Under the pieces are notes generated by a model, which worked only from the letters and a program-made list of their open reading frames with translations, made no database searches and was not told the DNA's origin. From assembly GCA_037893245.1 (NCBI GenBank), contig JBAIAA010000019.1, positions 62,001 to 126,000 on the forward strand: a stretch of 64,000 nucleotides of DNA. The letters are read 5' to 3'. This DNA comes from Crossaster papposus. Its lineage: Eukaryota; Echinodermata; Asteroidea; Velatida; Solasteridae. A program made the position numbers and the translations under genes. The first letter of the stretch is position 1. The number at the start of each line of letters is the position of its first letter. Of this stretch, positions 11,990 to 56,996 are shown piece by piece.

Positions 11990-12105
11990 AATAAAAATTA
12001 AACGAAATATGGGGTTTAAACAAAGAAAGGTATTGCTGACGATTCTTTACAGAGGGTAACAATAACACGTGAATACATTTATCGCAGTTTAGCACACTGT
12101 AAGCA
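11990..12105 (+). promoter_or_regulatory. Conserved 5' flank / 5' UTR of NLR copy 1
   Basis: About 60 bp from GGGGTTTAAACAA to ATTCTTTACAGA(G/A)GGT is shared with the matching position of copy 2 (51375-51430), although the sequence further upstream differs. It is therefore probably 5' UTR or core promoter. I cannot locate a TATA box or transcription start with confidence. A CCAAT motif lies near 11955. Confidence 0.35.
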
Positions 12106-12235
12106 ATGGCAGCATTAGCCAACATGACGACCGTTCCGGCTGCACCCACCGCCCCCAAGACTACACCTTCAGGAACGGGATTGACTGTTGGCATTGCCAT
12201 TGCCAGTGTCTTGGTCGTCCTGCTTATGGGATTGT
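12106..12235 (+). CDS. NLR copy 1, exon 1: sequon and membrane helix
   Basis: ATG at 12106, 43 codons plus one base, then donor GTGAGT at 12236. It encodes a Thr/Pro/Ala-rich start with one Lys, the sequon NMT, and the hydrophobic run LTVGIAIASVLVVLLMGL, which continues into exon 2. A second ATG (12124) would also keep the helix and is the one aligned with the start of copy 2. Confidence 0.7.
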
Positions 12236-15200
12236 GTGAGTATGATTGAATAGGACTTTTTTTGTCTGCTTGTTTGTTTGTTTGTAAACACCGTCGATCG
12301 TGGACGGGGGACAAAGGAATTTGTGGGGAAACAATGCTGTCCACGATCGACGCAAGGTCCACGATCTCGACTCGTGCGCAAATCCTATGGAGATCGTCCG
12401 AAAACGTTAGTGTACAAACAACAGAGGGATTACGGTCGGACAATGCCCCGTCCACTTGTGTGCGTGCTAGTGAGTTAGTCTTGTATACGCACTGTGGACC
12501 TCCGAACAATATAGGTCCACACGATGCGGGAAGAGGTTACGGTTTGAGGACTTGCCCAGGTCCACAATCCGTTTTTCAGTTTCCGAAAAAGAGCGCTAGA
12601 GGAAAAACGGGTTAGAGTTATATATAGAAAAGATAGAAGGAACAGCTGAGAGGCCCAGAATCAAAATTTGAGGGTAAATTTGTTTTGGGGAAGCGAGAAA
12701 AATGAGTATTTAGTCAACGTTTTTTAACTACACGAAGAATGTCCACAGTACGGTAAAGCTGGGTGAGTGTTTGTGTGAGTGTGTTTGATTGTTAGGGTGT
12801 TTTTTGTTGGCGTTTATTCTTTTGCTTGTTTGGGGTGTGTTTTGGTGGGCAGGTTTTATGGGTGCTTTTTATGTGAGTCTGTTTGTCCTAATTTGGGGTG
12901 CGTGTCAAGAAAGTGAGAGTAACTATCGACGCCATTGTCATCTTGCCTGAAACAAGTTCGGGTGCTTGGTGATGACGTCAGCTCACAAGATTCGTCTATG
13001 GCGAGCCGATTTAACATTTATTACTCTTGTTTTAGAGTTATTCAGAGATAAATATTTCTAAACGAATTTGAGATACCGGTAATTATTTTCTTATTTCTAT
13101 AATTAAATAAAGATATATTTAATTATTTGAAGACATTTCTAAGGGAAAAAATATGCGGTTGGCGGCTTTTAAGCTTACGTTTAAAACTGGCTCATGCGCC
13201 TGAAAGCGTTAATGCTTGAGCCGAAGTTAGGCTCGATTTGGTGTGTGAGAAATATCAAATTTGAAGAATTCAGATTAGGGTTATAGTAGAGCATTCATAG
13301 CATTATTGCTGGCGAAATGGTAAATTTGACCGACAACCTGTCAAAGAGTAGTTACTGAATAATATAATTTTCGTTCTATTTCAGTATCATTTTTATTCGG
13401 TACTAACGTCTTTGGTAGGTGCCGGGAGCGAAGGAGAGAAGGTATGCATTAGTTAATTACGACTACGCCCAACCACTGCCTGATAACCTGGGGCCAATTT
13501 CATAGAGCTGCTAAGCACAACAATTTGCTTAGCACTAACAAGTCTTGCTCATTAAAAACAGGTTACTAGCCAAAATTCTACGGGTTTTTCATGCTAAGCC
13601 AAAAACCAGCTGATTATTAATCGAAAACAATAAAGATCACGTGAAAATTTGGTCTGTAACCTTGTTTTTGCGAAGGACAAATTGTCATGCTAAGCAAATG
13701 TGTGTGCTTAGCAGCTCTATGAAATTGGCCCCTGTTTAATGTTTAAAACCGGGCTCATGTTTAATGCCAATACAAATCTGAATGCGATGTAAATGTGGTA
13801 TACACAAAGCATTCGCTGCAAAATTTCCCCCATTGACATGGGTTAAACTTTTCCGAATTCAAAGCGCGAACGCTCAGCCCTGACGTCATAGATTCGCGTT
13901 TTGAACTCGTGTGAAAATCGGACTCCTATTACCTATAAAATGGTTGAACCCTATCACGTGACCGGTCACGCTCCTAATTATCTTAACTTTAGACATGCGC
14001 AATGTTACCAATGAACCCGCAATTCTTAGAGTCTAAAAACATTTGGTTAACTGAATGGCGAATCTGTACGTCAGTGGTGATTTCTTGTCAACATTGGTGG
14101 AACGGGGAAACCAGCAATTTGGAATATTCGGAAGGGTGGAGAGGGGGTCGTTTGACTCTAGATGGCGCTGTTCCCATAATGTAGGTACATAATGTTACGC
14201 CCATTTCTATAATTTGTGTTTTATAAACTAATCAGTATTTCGAAGAAAAAAATCGGTATGAAAGAAGTGAAGTACATTTGAAAGAATTGATGCATGTACT
14301 GTGTAGTTATGCGGCTGGGGATTCCGGAAGGCCTAAAATAGGAGGGACATTCCAATTGCATGACTGGAAGGGACAAATCATCAACACAAAAGACTGTATA
14401 GGGACGCGGCTTGGCCACTCCGGTGTGCTATTTGTTCAGAAAAGCCCCAATCAAGTAATTTGAATGCGACCTAACTCTTGGATGTCACGTTTTATTCAGA
14501 ACGGACACGTCACCCAGCGAACCGGGGAGATGACATAGAACAAGGGACACCATTGACAACTATGCCTACTGATTCAGGAGGTAAATCCACACGCAGACAA
14601 ATGGACGCATAATTATGATTTAGGAATAATCCGTTGACGGCCTAGGTTAAAATGATCCTCGTAAAAAAAAATTTTTGGAAAACTCATGACTAAATACTTT
14701 ACTTTACACTCTACTTCTATTGACTTTGGACTTTTTTAATAAATTAATTACAGACGAAACGGAACTATGTCACTATGTTTTGACACGATTTTGTTGTTTT
14801 ACTCTTCACATCTGAAACGAGTCAGCCAGGATACAGTACGACAAGGGATACTATAGACTCGATATTCCAACTCAACTTGCTGCCGATAAGTGTGAGCTAA
14901 AATTAAAATACCCGATTAACATGGTTTGATTTCGATTTGTCCTTTTGTTACATTAGAAACGAGTCCGTCGAGTGAGAGGCGACAACGACCAGGATGCAGT
15001 ACGACGCGGAAGAGACGACTCGGGGATCCTAAACTTGCTGCTGATAAATGTGAGAAGACGCTAAAAGACATCTACACCAGCACAGGTAGCTATGTGCAGA
15101 TGCTTCCATGGGTGGATGATGATAAAATGCCCATCATGGACATCTACACAAAGCTACAATTGGTAAAAGGTGATAGGGATTTAAAGGGTAAGGTGAAATC

Positions 15201-17247
15201 GTATTGGGATATTTTCAAACTCAAAACAAGAGAGGGTCATCGAATTATACGGGCAATTTTAAGCGGAGGGGCTGGTCTAGGGAAAACGACTCTCCTTGAC
15301 AAAATAGCTTACGATTGGGCCTGTGGCACTGTTCCTGCACTGAAAAAGTACAAGCTTGTTTTTGTGTTGAAAATGCGTTCCCTGAAACAAACGTCGGATG
15401 TGATAGATGCACTGTTTGATCAGTTGTTAGATGAAGATACCATTAATAGGGAAGACTTGGAATCCTTCATTGCAGCCAACCCTGACGACGTGTTGTTTCT
15501 GTTAGATGGTTTTGATGAATTTAGGTCGACTGAGCTTTATGAGTCGGAGTTCGGTTCGATTCTTAAAATGCTCAATCGAAAGGGAAAGTACGCAAAATGC
15601 AATGTACTAGTAACAACCCGCCCCTCACACTATGACAAGCTGGTAAAAAACACTTTGATTCAGAGGCCGTTTGCTCGTGTTAATGTTTTAGGGTTTAGCG
15701 TGGACGATGTTAAGGAATATGTGCACAAATGTTATTCAGGAGAATCATCCAAAGCTGACGAACTTTTTGAGAGAATTGCATCCTCGAATGTTTTATTAGA
15801 TTTGGCCAAAAGTCCCATGCTGTTGTTATTGATGTGCTTGTTATGGAAAGAAAGTGCTACACTCCCTGACACCATGTTTCGACTTTATAATCAGGCACTG
15901 CGTTACATATTTAAACGTAAAACAAACATGTCAGAAGAAGAGATTTCAAGGCTAGTTACTGCTATTGGAAAGGTTGCTTTGCGTGGTCTACTTTCTTCTG
16001 ATCAAAAGTTATCATTCCAAGAGGGGGATTTTAAGCCGGATGTGCTTGAAAAGGCCTTACGAGCTGGCATCCTTACCAGCGAGCGAGTCTTGAAGGGGAT
16101 TGACACTTTCAAAACTGTTAATTTCATCCACAAAACGTTTCAAGAATTTTCGGCTGCCAAATACTACCAGAGTTTAACATCGGAAGAAGAAACGCGTGAA
16201 TTTGAAACGTTCTTTCGTCAAGTGTCTGATTTAGCAGGATTTGAATATCTTCTGCGTTTTTGCTGCGGTGACAGTGAGGGGCCACGAACAAATTCAATTT
16301 TGCAGATTTTATCGCATCAAGTCAAAAATAAAGGACATCTAGATGATAGCGCTATACAAATAGCCTTGCATTGTTACTTTGAAAGTCAGAGCCAGACATT
16401 GCCACCGTTGGAGTTAATTAATTCCGTCATTGATTCAAATCTAACTATTGGTCGTCTAGGGAGTGACCATTCGACATCGTTTATGTACTTCATAAACAAC
16501 GTTACTGATGACCAGAAAAAGAGTGGCGGAAATACTTGCCTCAAAAAGATACATAAATTAAGAATGGATCCTGACAGCTTTAGACAGTTGGGTACAGAAT
16601 ACGTTAATTATGTGAACAGAATGACAAATCTTCAAAGAATTGGAGTACGTAGTGAACAACAAGGATTACCAGGCACAATTGAAGACTGTACACCTTTCCT
16701 TTTGTCTCTACGTCTGAAGAAAATGACGCAGCTTCAGGCCGTGGCCTTCAATAATTGCTACCTAACAAGCAGTAACATGGAGCACATAGTTGGGCAACTG
16801 AGTATTCTGCCCAACCTTGTTGAATTGAATCTGTCTCACAATAGGACCCTTGGTGTATCAGGTCGGTCATGGTCTCACTTGAAGGAAATCAAAAGCCTCA
16901 ACAAACTAGACTTGGGTCGGTGCGCATTGAAAAGTGATGACTTGAAGCACATTGCCGTGGCGCTGGGTAATCTGCCCTACCTTGTTGAATTGTATCTGTC
17001 TGGCAATGAGACTCTTGGGGGATCAGGTCAGTCATGGTCTCACTTGAAGGAAATCAAAACACTCAACAAACTAGACTTGCGTGGCTGCAGATTGAGAAAT
17101 GATGACTTGAAGCACCTTGCGGCGGCGCTGAGTAATCTGCCCAACCTTGTTGAATTGAATCTGTCTTTCAGCTACACCCTTGCTGGATTATCAGGTAGGT
17201 CATGGTCTGTCCTGACAAAAATGAACCACCTGGGAAAGGTTTTTTAG
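12106..17247 (+). CDS. Membrane-anchored NACHT-LRR receptor, copy 1 (four-exon gene model)
   Basis: Predicted exons 12106-12235, 13385-13441, 14500-14580 and 14957-17247 are all joined by phase-1 introns with GT..AG ends, giving 852 residues. The order is: neutral N-terminus with sequon NMT (6-8), hydrophobic helix about 26-48, Arg-rich RCRERRRE, linker, NACHT ATPase (Walker A GGAGLGKTT from 193, Walker B LLDGFDE with Asp 273, sensor TTRPSH near 309, HKTFQEFSA near 481), then about three RI-type LRR units from about 672. NLR ATPases usually act as cytosolic danger sensors. Here a single membrane anchor replaces the usual Death, CARD or Pyrin adaptor domain. A one-base deletion near 17240 ends the frame early compared with copy 2. 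An AATAAA lies near 17620. Family assignment is firm; the membrane anchor is inferred from splice prediction. Confidence 0.8.
13385..13441 (+). CDS. NLR copy 1, exon 2: end of helix and basic stop-transfer
   Basis: A 57-nt exon between a pyrimidine-rich TTTCAG acceptor and a GTATGC donor, phase 1 at both ends. It encodes LSFLFGTNVFG followed by RCRERRRE. The basic cluster directly after the helix predicts that the C-terminal side is cytosolic (positive-inside rule). It is almost identical in copy 2. Confidence 0.75.
13490..13736. mobile_element. MITE in intron 2 of NLR copy 1
   Basis: About 245 bp with inverted termini starting GGGGCCAATTTCATAGAGCT and, inside that, GCTAAGCACA. It has no coding capacity. 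The matching intron of copy 2 (near 52725) lacks it, so it inserted after the duplication, or was lost there. The target duplication appears to be 2-3 bp (TG or CTG). Confidence 0.85.
14500..14580 (+). CDS. NLR copy 1, exon 3: hydrophilic linker
   Basis: An 81-nt exon, acceptor TTATTCAG, donor GTAAAT, phase 1 at both ends, open only in the frame set by exons 1-2. It encodes a charged then Thr-rich linker ending PLTTMPTDSGG. The matching exon in copy 2 has the same length and splice sites. Confidence 0.7.
14808..14897 (+). pseudogene. Degenerate duplicate of the start of NLR exon 4
   Basis: The sequence from GAAACGAGTCAGCCAGGATA to GATAAGTGTGAGC resembles the first ~90 bp of exon 4, 149 bp further on. 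The acceptor position reads CATCTG instead of CATTAG, so it is not splice-competent there. A donor-like GTGAGC remains at its 3' end. The same decoy exon is present and nearly unchanged before copy 2 (53783-53872), so it predates the duplication. Confidence 0.6.
14957..17247 (+). CDS. NLR copy 1, exon 4: NACHT and LRR domains
   Basis: Large terminal exon after acceptor TTACATTAG. The open frame reaches upstream to 14926 only through non-ATG codons, so it has no start of its own and must be joined to upstream exons. It carries the Walker A, Walker B, sensor and winged-helix/HD region motifs listed for the gene, then about three 55-residue LRR units with the patterns LPNLVELNLS and DDLKHIAVAL. 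It ends at TAG 17245-17247 because of a one-base loss relative to copy 2. Confidence 0.9.
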
Positions 17248-28600: not shown

Positions 28601-31600
28601 AATTTTTGCTTTACTTTTTATGTCAGAGCAATTTGACCGACAATGACATTTTTAAGTTTCAATTTGAACCTGAATCATGCGACATTGAGCCGCCTTGATG
28701 TTAATACTATACTTGCATTTTGGACACAGAATTAATGACTATTTAATTAAACCATGAAAATTGTTTGGACCCAAAATATTAAACATCAGTCTAATTTATT
28801 CAAATAAACTTTCAAAACCATACTCAAACCCTCACCTAACGAAAACTGAGGGCTCACTCGCATTACTGTTGTCATTTCCTACTTGTAGATTAGTAACGCT
28901 GCTGAGGAATGAGCAGAAACAAGATCAGACCATATATAAGTACCTGCTGGCACTGAAGCGGTTTGTACAGTTCTTAGAACTGCAGGACGAGGCAGCATCG
29001 GCCTTTAAGATCCGGCCATACAAGATAAAGAAAGCCACAATGCTGCTTGACCACTTCATGAGAAGTGTTCGTCCTGGCATCCTAGCCCAGGGCGAACCAA
29101 AACATATGGAGTTCTATATCTGCCACCTCGCGCCGCGGATCTCGCGTCGCGGATCTCGCCCCGCGGGTCGCGGATCTCGCATCGCGGGTCGCGGATCTCG
29201 CATCTCGCGTCGCGGATCTCGCATCGCGGGTCGCGGATCTCGCATCGCGGGTCGCGGATCTCGCATCGCGGGTCGCGGATCTCGCATCGCGGGTCGCGGA
29301 TCTCGCATCGCGGGTCGCGGATCTCGCATCGCGGGTCGCGGATCTCGCATCGCGGGTCGCGGATCTCGCATCGCGGGTCGCGGATCTCGCATCGCGGGTC
29401 GCGGATCTCGCATCGCGGGTCGCGGATCTCGCATCGCGGGTCGCGGATCTCGCATCGCGGGTCGCGGATCTCGCATCGCGGGTCGCGGATCTCGCATCGC
29501 GGGTCGCGGATCTCGCATCTCGCGTCGCGGATCTCGCATCGCGGGTCGCGGATCTCGCATCGCGGGTCGCGGATCTCGCATCTCGCGTCGCGGATCTCGC
29601 GTCGCGGATCTCGCGTCGCGGATCTCGCGTCGCGGATCTCGCGTCGCGGATCTCGCGTCGCGGATCTCGCGTCGCGGATCTCGCGTCGCGGATCTCGCGT
29701 CGCGGATCTCGCGTCGCGGATCTCGCGTCGCGGATCTCGCGTCGCGGATCTCGCGTCGCGGATCTCGCGTCGCGGATCTCGCGTCGCGGATCTCGCGTCG
29801 CGGATCTCGCGTCGCGGATCTCGCGTCGCGGATCTCGCGTCGCGGATCTCGCGTCGCGGATCTCGCGTCGCGGATCTCGCGTCGCGGATCTCGCGTCGCG
29901 GATCTCGCGTCGCGGATCTCGCGTCGCGGATCTCGCGTCGCGGATCTCGCGTCGCGGATCTCGCGTCGCGGATCTCGCGTCGCGGATCTCGCGTCGCGGA
30001 TCTCGCGTCGCGGATCTCGCGTCGCGGATCTCGCGTCGCGGATCTCGCGTCGCGGATCTCGCGTCGCGGATCTCGCGTCGCGGATCTCGCGTCGCGGATC
30101 TCGCGTCGCGGATCTCGCATCTCGCATTTTATTTGCTGGGTAATGCGCATGCCCAATGACAATGTGTAATTTGAGAAGCATGGTCAGGGTGCGTTTCCTT
30201 TGCGTTTTGTTCTCGCCCATTGTAATGTATACATTAGCGCTGGACGATATCACGATAATATCGTCACGATACGATACTGAAGACGATATCGACAGTATCG
30301 ACTTTGGTTTTAAAAATATCGAAATATCGTGACCCAGACGATATTCGCAAGATATAGTCGATATTTAACAAAATGTATTAAAACTGCTTGCAAACAAACA
30401 AAAAACTTCACTGAAATCAGAACTTAATATGTGCCGCAAAAGTTATTGTAACTTACGCCTTCCCCTGAACGTACCCTTTGTCAACAAACCCAATTGCAGC
30501 CGATGCGCCGCTCACTACTTCCTCAGTGACAAGATCGTTATCCAATCCTAAAGTCCAGTTAAAAAATTCTTCGTTGCTATTTGGTGTTGACTTTCTTTTC
30601 TAGCTTTCCGCACAGACGTTCTCTCAACACAAAGGGCTACTCAAAGAATGTTGCCCTGGCCCCGCTTATCTCCAACAAAGATACATTGTATTTACTTACA
30701 CTAACCCTTGCCTGGCAGATACAGAATGTATTTAAAAGGCTTTGGCTGGTGTATTCCTCGAATTTATTTATCTCTTGGCCCAACCGATGGTCATTAAATT
30801 GGGTGTGAGTACTTTAAACAAACTTTGCCTACTCATTTGCAAAATGTATTAAGATGTAAAAATAAAAAGGGGTTAAAAAACCCTGAACCTGTTTATTTAC
30901 GAAACCCTAGTCGTAAAAAAAATATATTTCTAAGGTTAATTATGAAATTGTCCTTGTTTTATAGAAAAAAAGAAAAAGGGTACTTAAAGACTTATTTGTC
31001 TGATTTCCCAAAACATTTCCAACCAATTTCAGGGGTAAATAATAATACGATTTATTCTTGGTTTTTCCGGTATCTAACAAAATCGACATACACCTGACCA
31101 TTGAATTACGAGGCTAGCGAAATAAATTCCAGGTTTATATAATAATATTTATTTCTAGTTTTATTGTTTAAAAAAGAACAAAAAAGAAAACGGGACCTCA
31201 ACACTTAATATTTTGAGCTCCTCAACATTTTTCCAACAGATTTAAATGGGAAATTTAATACGATTTATTTTCCATTTTTCTTGTATTTGACAACAAAGAT
31301 CTATTTCGTGGCCCATAAATTACAAGGCTAGCTTTTAAAAACATTTACTAAACCTACACGAGCCAAGAATAAATAAGCAAGAATAAAATCGAGGTGGTAC
31401 AAAATCCCGATGGCGGACCCCAGGATAAACTGAGCCATGAATATTTGAAATACTTTAAATTAAGACCCAGAAATCAAGGCATGATTTTGAAACGGGTATT
31501 ATTTGTTGTCCTGCATTGTCCCTTAAAATGCACGAGCTGAGGTTTTATCCCAGCAAATTACTCCCGGAAGCATGTACTTCAATCTTAAAGTGAATTTCTA

Positions 31601-34600
31601 AACGTCCTAATAAGAAGTGGTTATTCAAATTTAATAAATAATTTGCTGGGTGTTATTTAATAAAACCATAATAGTTAATTTGTCCATAAAAAGATGTGGA
31701 AATTGTAAGAGCTTGTTACATTTTTCAATTTATAAGTGGTTCTGTGGTGTAGTTTTACATAATATTTAATAAACACCTTTATAGTGCACGAGGAATAAAA
31801 TAAAACCACGGGAGAATTATTCGGGAGTATTTTCCAAATATATTCCAAGTTGGAGCAAGCAACCCAGACAATGATTGACAGCTGACCTACAAAATGTATT
31901 ACATGAACATTGTAGCAAGTAGACCAACATGTGGCCGACCATTTCAATAGCTGGGAAAGTGGCCCATGTTGCTTTGAGTGCCGACAGTACCCGACCAGGC
32001 GGAATTCACAAAGTAAAAAAGGTATTACATTATTGTCAGATAAGCCTCCAACTGATCAGTCATGGACCAATAGGATTTGGCAGTTAGGTTTTGTTGAACC
32101 AGCGCCACAACCTTTCTTCCAAGGAGCGCCCAGTTCGTTGCCCTCTATGAAAATTGGCCAATCAGAATAATCTATCTTTGCGCAATAAAACCGCAAGTGC
32201 CCCCTCCGACTTGAACGGCGGCTGGATTTTTAGTGGAAGACGACGAAGCATTTTCACCGTCGCGTCTATTTTCAGCAACCATTCTGTTTATATAGTTTTC
32301 TTTTATAGACGTTCAGGAATCGCCACGATTCACACATGTCGTGTGACCGCGTTTAATTAACAGCTCGTTTGAGTTATTTTAACCGAGATCCGCGACGCGA
32401 GATCCGCGACGCGAGATCCGCGACGCGAGATCCGCGACGCGAGATCCGCGACGCGAGATCCGCGACGCGAGATCCGCGACGCGAGATCCGCGACGCGAGA
32501 TCCGCGACGCGAGATCCGCGACGCGAGATCCGCGACGCGAGATCCGCGACGCGAGATCCGCGACGCGAGATCCGCGACGCGAGATCCGCGACGCGAGATC
32601 CGCGACGCGAGATCCGCGACGCGAGATCCGCGACGCGAGATCCGCGACGCGAGATCCGCGACGCGAGATCCGCGACGCGAGATCCGCGACGCGAGATCCG
32701 CGACGCGAGATCCGCGACGCGAGATCCGCGACGCGAGATCCGCGACGCGAGATCCGCGACGCGAGATCCGCGACGCGAGATCCGCGACGCGAGATCCGCG
32801 ACGCGAGATCCGCGACGCGAGATCCGCGACGCGAGATCCGCGACGCGAGATCCGCGACGCGAGATCCGCGACGCGAGATCCGCGACGCGAGATCCGCGAC
32901 GCGAGATCCGCGACGCGAGATCCGCGACGCGAGATCCGCGACGCGAGATCCGCGACGCGAGATCCGCGACGCGAGATCCGCGACGCGAGATCCGCGACGC
33001 GAGATCCGCGACGCGAGATGCGAGATCCGCGACCCGCGATGCGAGATCCGCGACCCGCGATGCGAGATCCGCGACCCGCGATGCGAGATCCGCGACCCGC
33101 GATGCGAGATCCGCGACGCGAGATGCGAGATCCGCGACCCGCGATGCGAGATCCGCGACCCGCGATGCGAGATCCGCGACCCGCGATGCGAGATCCGCGA
33201 CCCGCGATGCGAGATCCGCGACCCGCGATGCGAGATCCGCGACGCGAGATCCGCGGCGCGAGGTGGCAGATATAGAACTCCATAAAAACAAACGAAAAAT
33301 TCAAGGTAAGAATGTTTTTCTCACATTTCAACCAAAAGACAAAGTTGCCGTTTCAAATAATTAAACGTGAAATGCATCATCCGTTTTAAATCATGGAAAA
33401 ACTTTACGTGTCCTCTGGCGAGAACTGGTTAAAGAAGTTATTGGGTTTAGAATTTATATTTTATTGTAAATGTTGTCATTCCAGGCATTGGAAATCTCAG
33501 CTTTTAGAACCAGTTCGCGTCGGATGACATATACACACAAAAACATAATTCTGAGATTCTAAACGAATGACGGATAAGCACGTAACGAACATATCTGTCA
33601 GCAACAGGTTCGCAGCGCTTGTGCTTGGTCAATGTAAAACATTTTTGTCATCTGTTTCCTTATTACAGAACACATTTTAATCCTACAAAGTTTTGTCTTT
33701 GCAGGCCTACTGGTCGACAGCCAACAAATATCAACATTCCGTGGACGGTCAAACCAGGAATTAAAGGCACTGGTGAACGGAAGTAAGTTTAAAACTGCAC
33801 ACATTACTCTCGTAAACGAACACAACTGTTTTTGAAAGATACTCAAATCCCCAATAAAGTTGTTTTAGAGTGACAAAACTTTGGCAGGTGTTGTAATCAA
33901 TCTCCGGTTGACGCAGGGTTGGACATTTTCCAGTGGAAAACACATCATGTTTTCAACCCTGCGTCAACTCCAAGATTTGTCCAGTGTAAAAAGGGCTTAA
34001 AATATGTAACATTTAAACCCCAACATGACCCAATATTACAAAATACTAATACATAGCAAGTAAACTGTAGCCTTGACCTAGCACAAAAAACAGCGTTTGT
34101 TTTCAACCGGCGTCGAGCAGTTATTCTTATGTTATTTGTGTTTTGTCGCGATCGCCGCCCGTTGATCGCGAATTTTTCTTTATAAAATTATATTTTTCAG
34201 AATAATTACAGGATATCTAGCGCAATCATTTTGCTGGATGCCTAGAATCAATATTTACTTTCAGATTAGCAAGATATTTCTTAATAATTCGGTAGTAAAT
34301 TTTTTCGATATCTGCAAATAGTATATATCCTACTTTTAAAGCTAAGTAAAAACGATTTGCAGATATCGAACAATTTTACTACCGAATTATTCGAAAATAT
34401 CTTACTTATTTGAAAGGAAATATTGATTGTAGGCATCCAGCAAAATGACTGCGCTAGATATCCTATAATTGTTCCGAAACATTATTTGAAAACAAATTTG
34501 GGATTGCCGGATGGCGATCGCAAAAAAACAAAAACAACATAAGAACAACTGCTCGACGCCAAATTGAAAACGAATATAGTTTGTTATTCCTTTCCCTGGC

Positions 34601-37600: not shown

Positions 37601-40600
37601 TTTAACAATTTAATATCAAATATAGGCTGTCAGAAATCTCGATGAAAGGTCAGCAGACAGTGTGGCGCAACTAATGGACCACGACCCCAGCACCCAACGG
37701 AGCTACTACGTAGCTACGCAAGTGATCGGGGATAAATTGCAGGCGTGGAAAAACATTTCCACCATCATGACAACAGTAAGAATTTAGTTTGTGTACAGTA
37801 TAAATTATGCCCCCTAAAAATTGCTTATGGTTAGCCAACCAACCTTATTTTGACAGCCCTGACCCTAATAGAGAGAATACAAACACCATAATTTACTGAT
37901 AGACATATCTACCATTATGATTTGCACAAACAAATGACTGGTCATTTATTCACTGGTATTCAAAATGCATCACCCCCGAGGGGACCCGGGTTTAGAATAG
38001 GTACCCTGCATCCTCCTTGCATTTCGTAAAAGGCGAAAAAATGGAGGCAACTCGTTTGCCGTGAGTTGCGACTCGTGTCGGTGGAAGACGGGATCCTGGG
38101 GGTTGAGGATTCTGGTGAGCCCTTATTTCATCTAGACGAGCGGTCTGAATGGCCCGTTCAGATCAATCGGCTGGTCGTGCCTAGCCCCATGTGCTCAGAT
38201 TATAATTTTGATGCTTCATATAACATTTGTACTTTCCAAGTACTTATTCTATTTGTTATTAATCAGATTAGTCTATCTTCTCTAATATTAGCCATAATAA
38301 GCGGCGGCTCATGGGTCAATCAAGTATGATCTAATCATGCTTGAGTATACCATCCCTGTATCTCTGGTGTACAACTACATCAATTTTGAGTAGCTCTGTG
38401 CATCCCCTTGTTGGGCTCCATGGTGGGTGGAGACCAGAGATGGTGAAATATAACTCAAACTAATATGGCATCCCACACAAACAAACGAAACCGTCCCGAC
38501 TCAGATTCAGATTCAGATAAATCAGATCCTCTGCAACAATCTTCAACTGATACAAAAGACACTTGGTACAGATTTTTTGAAATAATATCAACAGACGATA
38601 ACCATTCCATTGCAAAGCTTTCGCCCTTTGTTATCGATAAAGCGATTCAGGGTATGGTAGGCACTGTAAAATTAGTTAAAAAACTAAGAAAACCTCCTAC
38701 AGGCAGCCTCCTCATAGAGGTGGCAACACAAACCCAAAGCCAGAACATCATCAAAATGAAGCAGTTGGCTAATATACCGGTTACTGTTCAACCACACAAA
38801 ACGTTGAACAGCAGCAAAGGTGTAATAAAAACTCGTGAATTAGACGATCAAACAGAGGATGAAATTCTAAACTATCTAGCAACACAAAGCGTTACCACTG
38901 TTAAAAGGATAACTATCAGGAAAAATGATAACATCATTGCCACTGGCACATATATTCTGACCTTTGATACAACGATACTTCCAGAGTTCATCAAGCTGGG
39001 ATACCTCAGGATTAAAGTTGAGAAGTTTATTCCCAACCCACTGAGGTGCTTCCAATGTCAAAAGTTTGGTCATGGTCTACAGGCATGCAGAGGAAAACCC
39101 TGTTGCTTTCGCTGTGGTGAACCTGACCACAACGGACAAGACTGTCACAGAGATCCAAAATGCAAGAACTGTCAGGGTGACCATATGGCTTCTTCAAGAG
39201 ATTGTCCAGTGTGGAAAATAGAAAAACAAACTCAATATCTGAAAGCTACAAACAACATCGGCTATTTAGAAGCTAAGAAAATGGCTAAAACTCACACACC
39301 TGACAAACCTACATATGCAGCAGCAGCAGCAGCAGCAATAACAGCAACGACACGACTTAAAGAAACTCACAATATGGAGTGCCAAACAAAGCTCACCTGG
39401 ATTACAACTGAAAAGCCAGTAAATTACACACCAACCACAGAACAAAAACGACCTCCAACTAAATCAACTAGCTGCCAGACCGATCCAGTTAATCTGGAAA
39501 AACTCCAAACCAAAACACGCTCTACTACTGATAAGGCAACAAACCAACCAACTACCAGTAGTAACTCTAAGGAAAAACCGGAAAACCTCCAAACCAAAAC
39601 ACATCCTGCTACTGATAAGAAAACAAATCAACCATCTACCAGTAATAACTCAAAGGAAAAACCGGAAAACATCCAAACCAAAACACACCCTGCTACTAAT
39701 AAGTCAACAAATCAACCATCTTCCAGTAGTAACTCAAAGGAAAAACCATCAGGAAAAACCCCTAATAAGAAAACAAACCCTGAATCCAGTAACCGAACCA
39801 AAAAAGGCAACAAAAACCCAATTAATCAACCTAACAAATACAGTAGTCTAGATGATGAAGCCGAAGAGGACATGGATGTATACTATACAGAACTCCAGCA
39901 AGTATCTACTAAATCAAAGGATAGAACAAGAAGTAGATCTCCCAGATCTAATATTAAATAACATTTTCTCTTACATAACCAGCTACATTACCCACAACGT
40001 AAATGAACAAAACTAAAATTGTTCAGTGGAATTGTAGAGGTTTTAAAGCCAACTTTAATGAGATTCAACTTTTAGTTCAAACACACAACCCAGTTGTGTT
40101 TGCACTTCAAGAAACCCACCTTAAAGAAACCGATAACATCAACCTGAAATCATATCACATGTATAATACCTATGACCCTGAAGAACAACGAGCCAAAGGA
40201 GGCTCTTCATTATTAGTAAAACAAGGCATTATTCATAGCCATGTTCCTCTAAATACCAATCTACAGGCTGTTGCAGCCCGCATCACTCTGCATAGAGCAA
40301 TCACCATATGTTCCATTTATATACCACCCACCTTTAATTTAAAACATACTGATTTAGATAACCTTGTTAACCAACTCCCAACTCCATATATATTACTAGG
40401 AGATTTTAATGGACATAACCCCGTTTGGGGTTCAGATACATATAATACAAAAGGAAGACTACTCAAAAAATTTATCGCCGACCAAGCTCTGTGTTTTTTA
40501 AACGATGGGTCACATACCTACCTACATCCTGGTAGTGGCTCATACACATCAATAGACCTCACACTTACAGACCCTGAACTTGTAACAGACTTTACATGGG

Positions 40601-43600
40601 TTGTGTGGGATGACCTATGTGGAAGTGATCATTTCCCAATCATCCTCGAATATGACCAATCACTCACTGAAGAATACACTCCCAAATGGAACTTCAACAA
40701 AGCAGATTGGGAAACTTTCTCTAAGCACTGTGAGGAAAAATTAACTAATATCAACTTCGACAATGGAACTAACCCCATTAAGACTTATACAAACATTTTG
40801 ATTTCTATAGCCGATGATACTATACCCAAAACATCAACTCATTCATCTAAACCCCATCTACCATGGGATGACCAAGAATGCAAGGAAGTCAGGAAAGCTC
40901 GCAAAAAAGCTGAACGGAAATTTAACCTTAGACCTACTTCAGATAACTTAGCTCAAGTTAAAATTGCTAGAGCTAAAGCCCGTCAAATTATCAATTACAA
41001 AAAAAGAAACAGCTGGAAAACATATGTATCTAAACTTACGTCACGTACTCCTTTGGGTAAAGTCTGGAATATGGTTCAGAAAATGAACGGTCGAAAGGTC
41101 AAATCAGGAGTTAAACATTTACAAAAAAATAATGAAACCCTTACTACTAAGACAGATATAGTAGAGGAATTGGCAAATTCGTTCGAGAAAAATTCTTCTA
41201 CAGAAAATTACTCAGAAGAATTTCAAAAATTCAAATTACAAAATGAACAACACCATTTAAAATTTGCATCTAATAACACTGAAAACTACAACCAACCATT
41301 TTCACTTGAAGAACTCACCACAGCCATTTGGAAATCACATGATACAGCAATAGGCCCAGATCAAATACACTATCAACTATTAAAACATCTACCTGAGAAA
41401 TGTCTAATAACTCTGTTAAACATACTCAATGTCGTATGGGAAACTGGTGACATACCACCATCATGGAAAAACGCTATTATCATTCCTATACCAAAACCAG
41501 GCAAAGATCATACAAACCCATCCAACTACCGACCAATAGCATTCACTTCATGTTTATGTAAAACTATGGAAAGAATGGTAAACGACAGACTTGTCTGGTT
41601 ACTTGAAGCTAATGGCCTAATTAATAATTTCCAATGTGGTTTTAGAAAAGGCCGAAGTACCATAGACCACTTGGTTAGACTAGAATCCTTTGTTCGAGAT
41701 GCTTTTATTAAAAAAGAGCATGCTGTTGCTATATTCTTCGACCTAGAAAAAGCATATGATACAACATGGAAGTATGGCATCATGAAAGATCTTCATGAAA
41801 TGGGATTCAGAGGTAAACTTCCACTTTTTATTGCAAATTTTTTAATTGACAGACAATTTCAAGTTAAAGTAGGGTCAACCCTATCTGCCTCACGTGAGCA
41901 AGATATGGGTGTCCCCCAAGGAAGTATCCTTTCAGTTACCTTATTTAGTATCAAAATTAATAACATTGTTAAAACAATACAGAATGGGGTCTCTCCATCG
42001 CTGTATGTTGATGATTTATTGATCTGTTATAGAGGTAGTCGCATGCAAAATATTGAACGTCAACTCCAGTTAACTCTTAACAAATTACAGAAGTGGTCTA
42101 CTGAAAATGGTTTCAAATTCTCTAAACCTAAAACCGTTTGTATGCATTTCTGTCGACTCAGAAATGCACACTTCGACCCTGAGCTATATCTTGCAGGTGA
42201 CAAAATCAAAGTAGTTAACGAAACAAAATTTTTAGGAATAATCTTTGATACTAAGCTTACCTTTTTACCTCATATCAAAGCTCTTAAAATTAAATGTCTA
42301 AAAGCTATGAACATTATCAAAGCTGTAGCAAATAAAAACTGGGGAGCTGAATGTTTAGTTTTATTACAACTATATAGATCGCTTATCCGATCTAAATTAG
42401 ACTACGGAAGCATTGTTTACGGTTCTGCCCCCAAGTCCTATTTAAAACAACTCAATACTATTCACCATCAAGGTTTACGGCTGTCTTTTGGTGCCTTCAG
42501 AACATCACCAGTTGAGAGCCTGTATGTCACAGCTGATGAACCACCTCTTGAAAATAGACGTATTAAACTCTCCTTACAATACATTACCAAATTAGCAGCC
42601 AACCCCTCAAATCCAGCATATCAATGTGTTTTTCATCCTAAGTTTCAACATATATATGCTGCTAAACCAAAAACAATTAAACCACTTGGTCTTCGTTTAC
42701 AGCCACACATACATGCAGCTAAACTAGAATTAACAAATATAGCACGAACCGAGATTCCAGTTATACCACCCTGGGAAATTCACAAACCTCGGGTCTTTGT
42801 ACATATGACTAAGTACAAGAAATCAGAAACTGATGCATCACTATTCCATAACGATTACCATGAATTTAAAGCTATGTTTCCCAACCACATCTGCACCTAC
42901 ACAGATGGCTCTAAAGATGAAGACAAAGTTTCCTCAGCTGCCACATGTAATCAGTACACACGAAGTATTCGTCTTCCGAACCAAGCTTCAATCTATACAG
43001 CTGAAATCAAGGCTATCCTGCTAGCTCTAGAAATGATTGATTCCATTAAGAAAAAGAAGTTTATTATCTTTAGTGACTCTCTATCAAGTCTACAGGCCAT
43101 AAGTGGACGCAACATAAATCATCCCTATTTGATAAAAGTCTTAAATAAACTAACTCAATTCCACCTGAAACACTTTGACATCATTTTCTGCTGGATTCCA
43201 AGCCATGTCGGCATAGCAGGAAATGAAAAAGTGGACGCTCTAGCTAAACAAGCATTAGATTTACCAATAAATCCATGTACCATCCCTTATACAGACCTGA
43301 GGAATTCTATTCACTCCTACACCAAACAGTTATGGCAAGTATCTTGGGCAACTTTTACATCCAACAAACTTTTCTCTATTCAACCTCACCTTGGCTTCTG
43401 GCAACCCTATAGAAATCTATCTCGACAAGATCAGGTTGTCCTGACTAGATGCCGGATAGGCCACTCAACATTAACACACGCTTTCCTTCTCAAAGCAGAC
43501 CCACAACCACAGTGTATTTCATGTAATAGTCCTCTGACCATGAACCACCTTATTGTAGAATGTGTTGAAATAGCTGAAATCAGACAACGATACTTCTTTG

Positions 43601-51374: not shown

Positions 51375-51478
51375 CTGGGGTTTAAACAAGGAACAGTATT
51401 GCCGACGATTCTTTACAGAAGGTCACAATAAAATGTCAACCTATTTGAATACATTACCCCCAGTTCAGTACTATAGAC

Positions 51479-51605
51479 ATGACGACCTTCAACGTGACAA
51501 CCGTTCTGACTGCATCCATCACCGCCCTCACGCCTACACCTGCAGTATCAGGATTGACTGCTGGACAGTGGGCACTCGGTGGTGCCTCCCTGATTCTGGC
51601 ATTGC
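51479..51605 (+). CDS. NLR copy 2, exon 1: sequon and membrane helix
   Basis: 42 codons plus one base, donor GTGAGT. Thr-rich start with sequon NVT and the hydrophobic stretch WALGGASLILAL. It is more diverged from copy 1 than any other exon, yet keeps the sequon, lack of charge and helix. Confidence 0.7.
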
Positions 51606-53459: not shown

Positions 53460-53540
53460 AATGGAGGCGTCACTCAGGGAACCAGAGAGGTGACAACGAA
53501 CAAGAGACACCATTGACAACTATGCCTACCGATTCAGAAG
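53460..53540 (+). CDS. NLR copy 2, exon 3: linker
   Basis: 81 nt, acceptor TTATTCAG, donor GTAAAT, phase 1 at both ends. Charged start and PLTTMPTDSE end, as in copy 1. Confidence 0.7.
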
Positions 53541-53782: not shown

Positions 53783-53872
53783 TCTGAAACGAGTCAGCCA
53801 GGATGCAGTACGACAAGAGATACTATAGACTCGATATTCCAACTCAACTTGCTGCCGATAAGTGTGAGCTAA
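53783..53872 (+). pseudogene. Degenerate duplicate of NLR exon 4 start, copy 2
   Basis: Same decoy exon as at 14808-14897, with CATCTG in place of an AG acceptor and GTGAGC at the 3' end. Confidence 0.6.
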
Positions 53873-53928
53873 AATTAAAATACCCGATTAACATGATTTG
53901 ATTTCAATTTGTCTTTTTGTTACATTAG

Positions 53929-56900
53929 AAACGAGTCCGTCGAGTGGGATAGGACAAGGATGCAGTACGACACAGGAGACTCGACTCGATGATCCAACTC
54001 AACTTGCTGCTGATAAGTGCGAGAAGGCATTAAAAGACATCTACACCAGCACAGGTAGCTATGTGCAGATGCTTCCATGGGTGGATGATGACCAAAAACA
54101 CATCATGGACATCTACACAAAGCTACAATTGGTAAAAGGTGATATGGATTTGAAGGGAAAGGTGAAATCGTATTGGGATATTTTCAAACTCAAAACAAGA
54201 GAGGGCCATTCAATTATACGGGCAATTTTAAGCGGAGGGGCTGGTATAGGGAAAACGACTCTTATTGGCAAAATTGCCCACGATTGGGCCTGTGGTAATG
54301 TTGCTGCACTGAAAAAGTACAAGCTTGTTTTTGTGTTGAAAATGCGTTCTCTGAAACAAACGTCGGATGTGATAGATGCACTGTTTGATCAGTTGTTAGA
54401 TAAAGAGACCATAGACAGGAAAGACTTGGAATCCTTCATTGCAGCCAACCCTGACGACGTGTTGTTTCTGTTAGATGGTTTTGATGAATTCAGGTCGACT
54501 GAGCTTGATGAGTCGGAGTTCGGTTCGATTCTTAAAAGGCTTAATCGAAAGGGAAAGTACGCAAAATGCAATGTTCTTGTGACAACCCGCCCCTCACACT
54601 ATGACAAGCCGGTAAAGAACACTTTGATGCAGAGGCCGTTTGCTCGTGTGAATGTTTTAGGGTTTAGCGAGGACGATGTTAAGTAATATGTGCACAAATT
54701 TTATTCAGAAGAATCATCCAAAGCTGATGGACTTTTTAAGACAATTGTATCCTCGAAAGTTTTATTCGATTTGGCCAAAAGTCCCATGCTGTTGTTATTG
54801 ATGTGCCTGTTACGGAAAGACAGTGCTACACTCCCTGACACCATGTTTCGACTTTATAATCAGGCACTGCGTTATATATTTAAACGTAAAACAAACATGT
54901 CAATAGAAGAGATTTCAAGGCTGGTTACTGCTATTGGAAAGGTTGCTTTGGCCGGCCTACTTTCTTCTGATCAAAAGTTATCATTCCAAGAAGGGGATTT
55001 TGAGCCGGATGTGCTTGAAAAGGCCTTACGAGCTGGCATCCTCACCAGCGAGCAAGTCTTGAAGGGGATCGACACTTCCAAAACCGTTTATTTCATTCAC
55101 AAGACGTTTCAAGAATTTTCCGCTGCCATATACTACCAGAGTTTAACATCGGAAGAAGAAACACATAAATTTGAAACGTACTTTCGTCAAGTGTCTGATT
55201 TAGCAGGGTTTGAATATCTTCTGCGTTTTTGCTGCGGTGACAGTGATGGGCCACCGACAAATTCAATTCTGCAGATTTTATCGCATAAAGTCACAAATGC
55301 AGGATGTCTTTTTGATAAAGTTATACAACTAGCCTTGAAATGTTACTTTGAAAGTCAGAGCCACGTATTGCCACCGTTGGAGTTAATTAATTCCGTTATT
55401 GGTTCAGATCTAACATTGTTTTCTCTAGGGAGAGAGGATTCGACATTGTTTATGTACTTCCTAAACAACGTTACTGATGACCAGAAAAAGGGTGGCGGAA
55501 ATGCTTGCCTCGAAAGGATACACACATTATCAATGGATCCTGACAGCATTCGACAGTTGGGTACAGAATACGTAAACTATGTGAACAGAATGACAAATCT
55601 TCAAAGAATTCATGTGTATAAACAATAGATAGTAATGGGCTTATCACCATTCGATGAGAACTATTTCTTTTTGTCTCTACGTCTGAAAGAAATGACGCAG
55701 CTTCAGGCCGTGGTCTTCAATGATTGCAAACTAACAAGCAGTTGCATGGAGCACATTGTTGGGCAACTGAGTAATCTGCCCAACCTTGTTGAATTGAATC
55801 TGACTCACAATAACATTGGTGGATCAGGTCGGTCATGGTCTCAGTTGAAGGAAATCAAAACCCTCAACAAACTAAACTTGGATTTTTGCAGATTGAGAAG
55901 TGATGACTTGAAGCACATTGCCGTGGCGCTGAGTAATCTGCCCAACCTTGTTGAATTGAATCTGTCTCGCAATTGGAGACTTGCTGGATCAGGTCGGTCA
56001 TGGTCTCACTTGAAGGGAATCAAAACACTCAACAAACTACACTTGGGTATGTGCAAATTGAGAAGTGATGACTTGGAGCACATTGCCGTGGCGCTGGGTA
56101 ATCTGCCCGACCTTGTTGAATTGAATCTGTCTTGGAATCATACCCTTGCTGGATCAGGTCAGTCATGGTCTCACTTGAAGGAAATCAAAAAGCTCAACAA
56201 ACTAGACTTGGGTTGGTTCAGATACAGTTGGAGAAGTGATGACTTGGAGCATATTGCCGTGGCGCTGGGTAATCTGCCCAACCTTGTTGAATTGGATCTG
56301 TCTGGCAATGAGACCCTTGCTGGATCAGGTCAGTCATGGTCTCAAATGAAGGAAATCAAAACACTCAACAAACTAGACTTGCACTGCTGCGGATTGAGAA
56401 GTGATGACTTGAAGCACATTGCCGAGGCGCTGGGTAATCTGCCCAACTTTGTTGAATTGAATCTGTCTAGCAATAACCTTGCTGGATCAGTTGCTGGATC
56501 AGGTCGGTCATGGTCTCACTTGAAGGAAATCAAAAGCCTCAACAAACTAGACTTTGGTTCGTGCGGATTGAGAAGTGATGACTTGAAGCATATTGCCGTG
56601 GCGCTGAGTAATCTGCCCAACCTTGTTGAATTGAATCTGTCTGGCAATCATGACCTTGCTGAATCAGGTGGGTCATGGTCTCACTTGAAAGAAATCAAAA
56701 CGCTCAACAAACTAGACTTGGGTCGGTGCGGATTGAGAAGTAATGACTTGGAGCACATTGCCGAGGGGCTGGGTAATCTGCCCAACCTTGTTGAATTGAA
56801 TCTGTCTTACAATAAGACCCTTGGTGGATCAGGTCGGTCTTGGTCTGTCCTGACAAAAATGAACCACCTCGAAAAGCTTTCTTTGTGTGACTGTCGTTTG

Positions 56901-56996
56901 ACCGCTGACGATAAGGCAGAAATCACCGAAGCAGTGAGTCAAATGACCAGCCTGGAAGTGGAAATGATGACAAGTCTGGAAGATTATTATTATTAA
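53929..56996 (+). pseudogene. NLR copy 2, exon 4: NACHT and expanded LRRs with two stops
   Basis: Homologous to 14957-17247 over the NACHT part. Frame blocks 53929-54683, 54687-55625 and 55629-56996 are collinear in one frame. The LRR array has seven units (LPNLVELNLS pattern) against three in copy 1. It then keeps the terminal LTADDKAEITEAVSQMTSLE cap that copy 1 lost, and ends DYYY then TAA. Confidence 0.85.

Follow-up and report, generated by a model that had tools for sequence, protein, structure and literature searches.

A starfish NLR family with a probable single-pass membrane anchor, and close paralogs in which Death-domain exons precede the same NACHT-LRR exon

Animal NLRs are mostly regarded as sensors in the cytosol that carry an adaptor at the N-terminus. 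The window analysed here, a 64 kb stretch of the Crossaster papposus genome, contains two NACHT-LRR copies and raises the question of what occupies the place of this adaptor. The large NACHT-LRR exon has no initiating ATG, as the sequence-only reading of the locus had noticed: its first Met is the internal one of the motif YVQMLPW, and no ATG lies ahead of it. That reading had joined to this exon three upstream exons through phase-1 GT..AG introns, adding about 90 residues. Our analysis confirmed this arrangement, with 89 residues contributed by the three small exons in copy 1 and 88 in copy 2, GT..AG borders in 6/6 introns and phase 1 at all joints of both copies. The features are as follows.

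12015..12073, plus strand: conserved 5' leader (promoter/5'UTR region) of copy 1, from blastn and the leader alignment (L009 1016-1074)
12106..12235, plus strand: exon 1 of copy 1, with the start codon, a short N-terminus bearing the sequon NMT, and most of the putative TM helix
13385..13441, plus strand: exon 2 of copy 1, with the end of the helix and the Arg-rich stop-transfer GRCRERRRE
14500..14580, plus strand: exon 3 of copy 1, a linker that is first basic, then Thr/Asp-containing
14855..14908, plus strand: relic second copy of the 5' end of the NACHT exon, within intron 3 of copy 1, with its 5' border at the breakpoint between TM and Death loci (L009 3856-3909)
14957..17247, plus strand: exon 4 of copy 1, NACHT and LRRs, ending early relative to copy 2
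51381..51467, plus strand: conserved 5' leader of copy 2, from the leader alignment (L010 2382-2468)
51479..51605, plus strand: exon 1 of copy 2, N-terminus with the sequon NVT, and helix
52623..52679, plus strand: exon 2 of copy 2, helix end and Arg-rich stop-transfer
53460..53540, plus strand: exon 3 of copy 2, linker
53827..53880, plus strand: relic second copy of the NACHT exon start, within intron 3 of copy 2 (L010 4828-4881)
53929..56996, plus strand: exon 4 of copy 2, NACHT-LRR with two in-frame stops, probable pseudogene

The N-terminal module had been described as a sequon, a hydrophobic helix, an Arg-rich stop-transfer and a linker, and we recovered this order in both copies, beginning with a short Thr/Pro/Ala-rich start that holds the sequon. 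In copy 1, an in-frame TAA lies 6 nt 5' of the ATG, the sequon is N6-M-T and the helix covers approximately residues 26-48. TM segments were called by a hydropathy scan (Kyte-Doolittle, 19-residue window), in which the best mean was 2.82 for copy 1 and 1.95 for copy 2. The scan found a single segment ahead of the NACHT domain in the window copies, preceded by 29 and 33 residues, and no array of 3-5 segments of the anemone type. The charges are distributed asymmetrically: within the 25 residues past the hydrophobic stretch there are 8 Arg in copy 1, vs 1 basic residue ahead of it, and 8 basic residues in copy 2, vs 0 ahead. With good support from this pattern, we infer a reverse signal anchor, with the N-terminus predicted to be outside or lumenal and the NACHT-LRR part in the cytosol.

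Both components of an NLR, the NACHT domain and the C-terminal LRRs, were found downstream of this module. The NACHT domain (Pfam PF05729) was recognized with an E-value of 4.5e-28 in copy 1 and of 1e-27 in the part of copy 2 that precedes its first stop, and LRR_8 was barely over the cut-off in copy 1 (27.7 vs 27, Pfam). There was no Pfam match to a Death-fold adaptor in exon 1 or ahead of the NACHT domain, nor in the homologue P0001 described below; such an N-terminal adaptor is not needed for NLR membership. An Ig ectodomain was likewise without Pfam match in the N-terminus of the window copies and of P0001. Damage to the two bodies was absent from the earlier description: copy 2, probably a pseudogene, is interrupted by in-frame stops at 54684-54686 and 55626-55628, and the frames of the two copies part at a T-run near 17240, close to the C-terminus of copy 1, with a stop of copy 1 at 17245-17247.

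The same N-terminal exons recur throughout the genome. From the best 100 of 422 candidate NACHT exons in this 1.02 Gb genome, we read the upstream regions of 20 picked by contig (five on C19, two of them the window copies, twelve on C362 and three on C697). Exon 1 was matched by tblastn, which imposes no frame condition, in 12/20 loci, both window copies included, and a script demanding an open frame, a length of 1 mod 3 and a GTGAGT donor retrieved the identical 12 loci. When the frame condition was dropped, the first GTGAGT at least 90 nt past each ATG still gave a length of 1 mod 3 in 12/12 cases. A thirteenth anchor locus, L012, has exons 2 and 3, with exon 1 absent from the stretch read. 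Exon 2, or its sequence with the preceding AG, was present in 13/13 anchor loci (L016, L019 and L028 among them), as was exon 3. The 5' leader was conserved in 13/13 loci with exon 1, namely the 12 and L029 on contig C195, where exon 1 lies at 116-242 and a divergent NACHT domain (1.9e-20), outside the listed 100, starts from about 6009. No comparable match to the leader was found in the stretches read of the seven Death loci described below.

Two exon-1 queries against the whole genome, with an E-value limit of 10, yielded 48 and 42 matches, which merged into 49 places; the weakest (E 8.9) is likely due to chance. Within 10 kb downstream of 37/49 places, on the same strand, there is one of the best 100 NACHT exons. 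For the first 45 places, 33 sit 1.6-8.8 kb upstream of a listed NACHT exon on the same strand, whereas 2000 random placements gave 4.9 on average and never more than 12; no place had a NACHT exon downstream on the opposite strand, and 1 had one upstream. The unpaired places may have their NACHT partners outside the best 100 of 422, as does the place on C195 (L029). Chance splicing of the small exons is ruled out by the paralogs, by the other starfish and by this genome-wide association between exon 1 and NACHT exons.

A Death-domain exon upstream of the window copies would speak against the sequence-only reading; five tblastn queries over the 64 kb window found none (best E 0.13). Elsewhere in the genome, however, Death exons do occupy this position. 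In 7/20 loci we found Death-domain exons in tandem, repeating about every 400 bp, with 3-7 hits per locus (tblastn, first 100 residues of P0072), one of these exons matching Pfam PF00531 at 1.7e-12. Complete exons, by a script demanding phase 1 at both ends, were recovered in 6 of these 7 loci and none in L025. The remaining fetched loci had no Death hit at E <=1e-4. Judged from the genomic sequence, paralogs in the same clusters join the same NACHT-LRR exon to Death exons: the main tblastn match to copy 1 is 81-93% identical in L010-L028, across both classes, and copy 1 and the Death locus L017_DD are 89% identical over 328 columns. The listed NACHT loci of contig C362, 12 in number, are an interleaved set of 6 TM and 6 Death loci.

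To the best 100 NACHT exons we assigned modules from the exon-1 matches and the best 150 of 383 genome-wide Death-exon candidates, the upstream search stopping at the preceding listed NACHT exon. Among the listed matches, the 10 kb upstream contained exon 1 (TM) in 37 cases, Death in 29, both in 0 and neither in 34, and the 20 kb upstream contained them in 39, 34, 0 and 27 cases, respectively; the 'neither' class is an upper bound, and the '0 both' is valid among the listed matches. If the two modules were independent, about 10.7 exons would be expected to have both at the 10 kb rates (simple product), vs 0 seen.

The exchange can be placed within one intron. In the comparison of anchor and Death loci, which covered 6/13 anchor loci, the sequences stay 90-98% identical upstream of the NACHT exon as far as -101/-105 bp, where they diverge. 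Past this breakpoint, 7/7 Death loci match a stretch at about -1390 to -1566 of the anchor loci L021 and L027, which lies inside intron 1, about 75 bp 5' of exon 2 (-1339, -1315). The common breakpoint, about 105 bp 5' of the NACHT exon, corresponds to the 5' edge of the 54-nt relic in intron 3 (14855-14908 in copy 1). The Death loci thus look like anchor loci minus the segment bearing exons 2 and 3. Since Patiria and Acanthaster proteins with the same NACHT body bear the anchor, the TM anchor would be the older state in the clade and the Death array would have been brought in; the reverse order, with Death older than the anchor, could also apply. The within-genome NACHT tree exhibited 3 changes between TM and Death, of which starred branches force 1, and it resolves branches too weakly to decide whether TM and Death loci form separate clades.

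Joined copy 1 has its best protein match in Patiria miniata (67% identical over 100% of the query). A hydrophobic stretch (mean at least 2.0) precedes the P-loop in 14 of the best 120 proteins (134 in total), and we retained the 11/14 that start like the window copies, excluding P0061, P0068 and P0110. The retained TM-NACHT models are P0001-P0003 of Patiria miniata, P0010 of Acanthaster, P0041, P0044, P0045, P0052, P0067 and P0086 of Asterias, and P0106 of the brittle star Amphiura; the N-terminus of P0001 reads MASPDNMTTVPAAPTVPKPTPAGSGLTAGDWAAIGTCIGIVGLSLTLIGVILTYYGRRRR. A search of echinoderm proteomes for the module fused to NACHT had been proposed as a check, and such fusions do exist in the Patiria, Acanthaster and Asterias models. 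Patiria and Acanthaster have a module closely like that of the window copies, the Asterias models resemble it more loosely, and P0067 and P0106 do so least. The models P0004 and P0005 probably start at an internal Met and so lose the anchor. An ancient asterozoan origin was considered and rejected: the first 110 residues of P0106 retrieve only P0106 among 278 candidates, and its similar start does not establish homology to the starfish module.

Acanthaster P0121, which belongs to the same NACHT clade, begins with another hydrophobic segment, MLTASPEALAGNVVLVVAGCCLILLVWVFMLKRAR, and continues with a stretch that is Death-like by eye and has no Pfam Death match at E up to 0.1. Because this protein combines a TM start with a Death-like stretch, anchor and Death are not necessarily alternatives; they may coexist in one starfish protein, and the exclusivity seen in Crossaster may not be universal in starfish. 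The TM start probably arose more than once. In the cross-species NACHT tree (quick method, SH-aLRT only), the TM label requires 10 changes, all forced by starred branches, in a tree where many 'other' rows may be models without their first exons, long branches meet and P0121 is labelled 'other'. The sole use that we make of this tree is that, on its branches, the anchor is present on several NACHT lineages.

Taking the 11 database proteins and the two window copies together, all 13 have 24-33 residues ahead of the best hydrophobic stretch (hydropathy means 1.95-3.18), with 0-3 basic residues ahead of it and 5-15 past it, K+R being always more numerous after. A long hydrophobic segment followed by positive charges, the criterion for a reverse signal anchor, was thus found in 13/13 proteins. 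The sequon was present in 13/13 N-termini, when shuffles expect 5.1; it is kept in only 6/12 of the exon-1 peptides fetched from this genome (by eye). An AlphaFold2 model of P0001 (11 sequences, mean pLDDT 72.9) places a helix at residues 28-49, where pLDDT is <50, and has nothing confident ahead of residue 104, from which the NLR fold follows. Its best Foldseek matches were NLRC4, mouse cytoplasmic-lattice chains and NLRP9; the TM-scores of the first twelve lay at about 0.36-0.50, and no hidden Death fold was seen in this model.

Among paralogs, the median pairwise dN/dS was 1.51 for exon 1 (65/66 pairs usable), 1.21 for exon 2 (32/45) and 1.66 for exon 3 (44/55), and 0.49 for the first 1050 nt of the NACHT exon (153/153 pairs from 18 loci of both classes). 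No purifying selection on exons 1-3 is thus visible by dN/dS among the paralogs of this genome, in which the anchor module, by these values, is drifting or diversifying. With values above 1, dN/dS was discarded as a proof of coding, and the coding status of exons 1-3 follows instead from the frames, the splice sites, the leader and the other species.

We conclude that Crossaster papposus probably has a large NLR family held in a membrane by a single-pass anchor, the product of exons 1-3. Anchored and Death forms would have a common sensor and oligomerisation repertoire. The anchored form would act as a membrane-tethered sensor or nucleator, in which perturbation of the LRRs or of the membrane leads to oligomerisation via NACHT, and it would recruit Death-NACHT-LRR paralogs through their closely similar NACHT domains, with cell death or NF-kB as output. 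NAIP and NLRC4 form a sensor-helper pair of this kind; recruitment of the Death paralogs by the anchored form is a tentative proposal that we consider worth pursuing rather than expected. Still more doubtful is a wider scheme in which one sensor repertoire would be deployed in two compartments by exchange of 5' cassettes at one intronic breakpoint, the anchored form sensing in the plane of the membrane and nucleating Death-form oligomers, and recombination among NACHT-LRR exons moving variants between compartments. Several observations count against the anchored architecture: the dN/dS above 1 of the small exons, the broken copy 2, the shortened copy 1, the 34/100 listed NACHT exons with neither module, the sequon kept in only half of the fetched exon-1 peptides, the low pLDDT around the modelled helix, and P0121.

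Other explanations of the small exons were weighed against a membrane anchor. The hydrophobic exon is N-terminal and could encode a cleaved signal peptide or a mitochondrial presequence, the mature protein being secreted or mitochondrial, and a mitochondrial NLR, NLRX1, is indeed mentioned in the available text of PMC8699970. The charges, however, form the reverse of the pattern expected for such peptides in 13/13 proteins by the hydropathy scan, and the basic residues that an NLRX1-type targeting sequence would place ahead of the helix number 1 and 0 in the window copies by plain count, which makes this explanation very unlikely. It is also improbable, although less so, that the anchored copies are mostly non-functional relics with drifting N-terminal exons, the work being done by the Death-NACHT-LRR genes. 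The dN/dS above 1 in exons 1-3 would fit, as would the two stops of copy 2, the shortening of copy 1 and the stop in 2/48 exon-1 matches. Against this, exon 1 is open with a length of 1 mod 3 in 12/12 tblastn-matched loci, the leaders are conserved, a like module exists in other starfish genera, and copy 2 is the only one of the best 100 NACHT exons, a best-scoring set that favours intact exons, with a stop inside the matched stretch.

The helix itself could be the effector, NACHT oligomerisation packing helices into a pore or a membrane-disrupting bundle. No further effector domain was found by Pfam or in the P0001 model, and small-xxx-small pairs are enriched in 20 unique helices with hand-set bounds (44 vs 31.8 expected, p 0.0012), helices that are related and not independent. 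GxxxG alone, in contrast, was without enrichment in the same helices (11 vs 8.2 expected, p 0.17), so that a glycine zipper was rejected, and the Death paralogs offer a simpler output; we regard a helix effector as unlikely. Finally, the small exons could be an alternative 5' end of genes that also splice to Death exons further upstream, and either module can indeed join the same phase-1 acceptor, while in P0121 a Death-like stretch follows a TM start. Because of this protein, we hold this explanation slightly more likely than before, and the scheme of one repertoire in two compartments slightly less so. The alternative 5' end nevertheless seems highly improbable: the 64 kb window gave no Death hit, and, among the listed matches, 0/100 listed NACHT exons had both modules in the 20 kb upstream.

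If the membrane-anchor reading is correct, a large starfish family seems to have swapped the adaptor for a membrane anchor next to neighbours whose closely similar bodies bear Death domains. Such natural matched pairs make the role of the NLR N-terminus testable, and the location and output of an immune receptor would be exchangeable at one intron. An automatic name like 'NLR family CARD domain-containing protein 4-like' conceals the anchor.

The membrane-fixed TM-NACHT-LRR class put forward by the sequence-only reading is thus sustained by sequence in having an anchor in place of an adaptor, given the gene family, the models of other starfish and the Death alternative. It cannot be maintained as unprecedented: as far as the available text of these papers goes, membrane-bound NLRs are already in print for anemones (PMC5094078), a sponge (PMC12909245) and a sea cucumber (PMC8699970, PMC13133943). 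AjNLRC4 of Apostichopus japonicus is, like the starfish proteins, an echinoderm NACHT protein, and is described in the available text of PMC8699970 at the cell membrane with its ectodomain outside and its NACHT inside. On the outside it carries Ig-like and Ig domains; two TM segments are predicted (483-503, 776-795) and LRRs are absent, whereas, compared by description, the starfish copies have approximately 30 residues ahead of the helix, one TM before NACHT, and LRRs. AjNLR-new likewise combines TM and NACHT in an echinoderm but, in the accessible part of PMC13133943, has two TM segments with NACHT outside and Ig inside, whereas the single starfish helix has charges that predict NACHT inside.

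Actiniarian TMD-NLRs also have N-terminal TM segments and were proposed to be membrane-bound; according to the text available of PMC5094078, they have 3-5 such segments, in contrast to one in starfish, and the 15 reported form one clade. TM domains also occur in NLR architectures of the sponge Dysidea avara, for which the available portion of PMC12909245 describes no exchange of Death modules on a common exon. Of the 53 NLRs of the sea cucumber Chiridota heheva, 24 have death/DED domains and only one is reported to have LRRs, as given in the accessible text of PMC8913654; its Death-NACHT proteins have a similar body plan, with an N-terminal Death domain instead of the anchor. In Crossaster papposus, the Death-NACHT form uses the same NACHT-LRR exon as the anchored form. 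NACHT domain combinations in amphioxus are the subject of PMC2575513, as far as its available text goes. No paper on starfish TM-NLRs or on TM/Death exchange was found in the open-access literature searched. Membrane-bound NLRs as such are thus known, and what appears new, relative to the literature searched, is the single-pass, LRR-bearing form of starfish together with the exchange between TM and Death modules.

Anchor exons, which belong to the cassette encoding the sequon N-terminus, hydrophobic helix, Arg-rich stop-transfer and linker, were recovered outside the two NLR copies of the window. At one further locus of the same genome (L029, contig C195), an anchor exon and its leader were located 5' of a divergent NACHT exon.

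L029:116-242, anchor exon (exon 1), preceded by its leader
L029:5679-7976, divergent NACHT exon

Judging by this arrangement, the cassette is therefore not confined to a single NACHT lineage. Another locus, L013, carried anchor exon 2 three times in tandem, every copy being flanked by AG and GT. An upstream ATG (ATGTCAACC) was present in 9 of the 13 leaders, including that of copy 2 (51433-51478), in which it was out of frame with exon 1, as counted by eye, and could correspond to a short upstream ORF.

Two minisatellites and a LINE-like element were also observed in the window, the latter in the interval that separates the NLR copies.

29051-30183 and 32357-33364, minisatellites, both G+C-rich and oppositely oriented
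38447-43686, + strand, LINE-like non-LTR element, motifs recognised by eye

The units of the two minisatellites were related, with several frames simultaneously open, one of them reading RDARSATRDPRREI. By eye, one ORF of the LINE-like element contained CCHC knuckles and another, of 1227 aa, motifs of endonuclease, reverse transcriptase and RNase H.

Among the database proteins matched by joined copy 1, the models of P0004 and P0005 do not begin until the Met inside the NACHT exon (MMPW, MLPW), so that their first exons were probably overlooked by annotation. Other starfish models exhibited different N-termini. In P0121 of Acanthaster planci, the TM start is of another kind and precedes a Death-like stretch and then NACHT-LRR, which would make it a TM-Death-NACHT-LRR model. 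The Patiria NLRs P0061 (with MGVSAVIGFLGVLGAIFLM) and P0068 carry a hydrophobic stretch of a different kind at the N-terminus, possibly a second, unrelated membrane form. Finally, in five Patiria proteins (P0020, P0039, P0069, P0073, and P0080) the NLR N-terminus was of yet another type, containing motifs such as GTISGSNNPNIVGSSGVNINYN that look similar to RHIM or to the amyloid signalling motifs of fungi.
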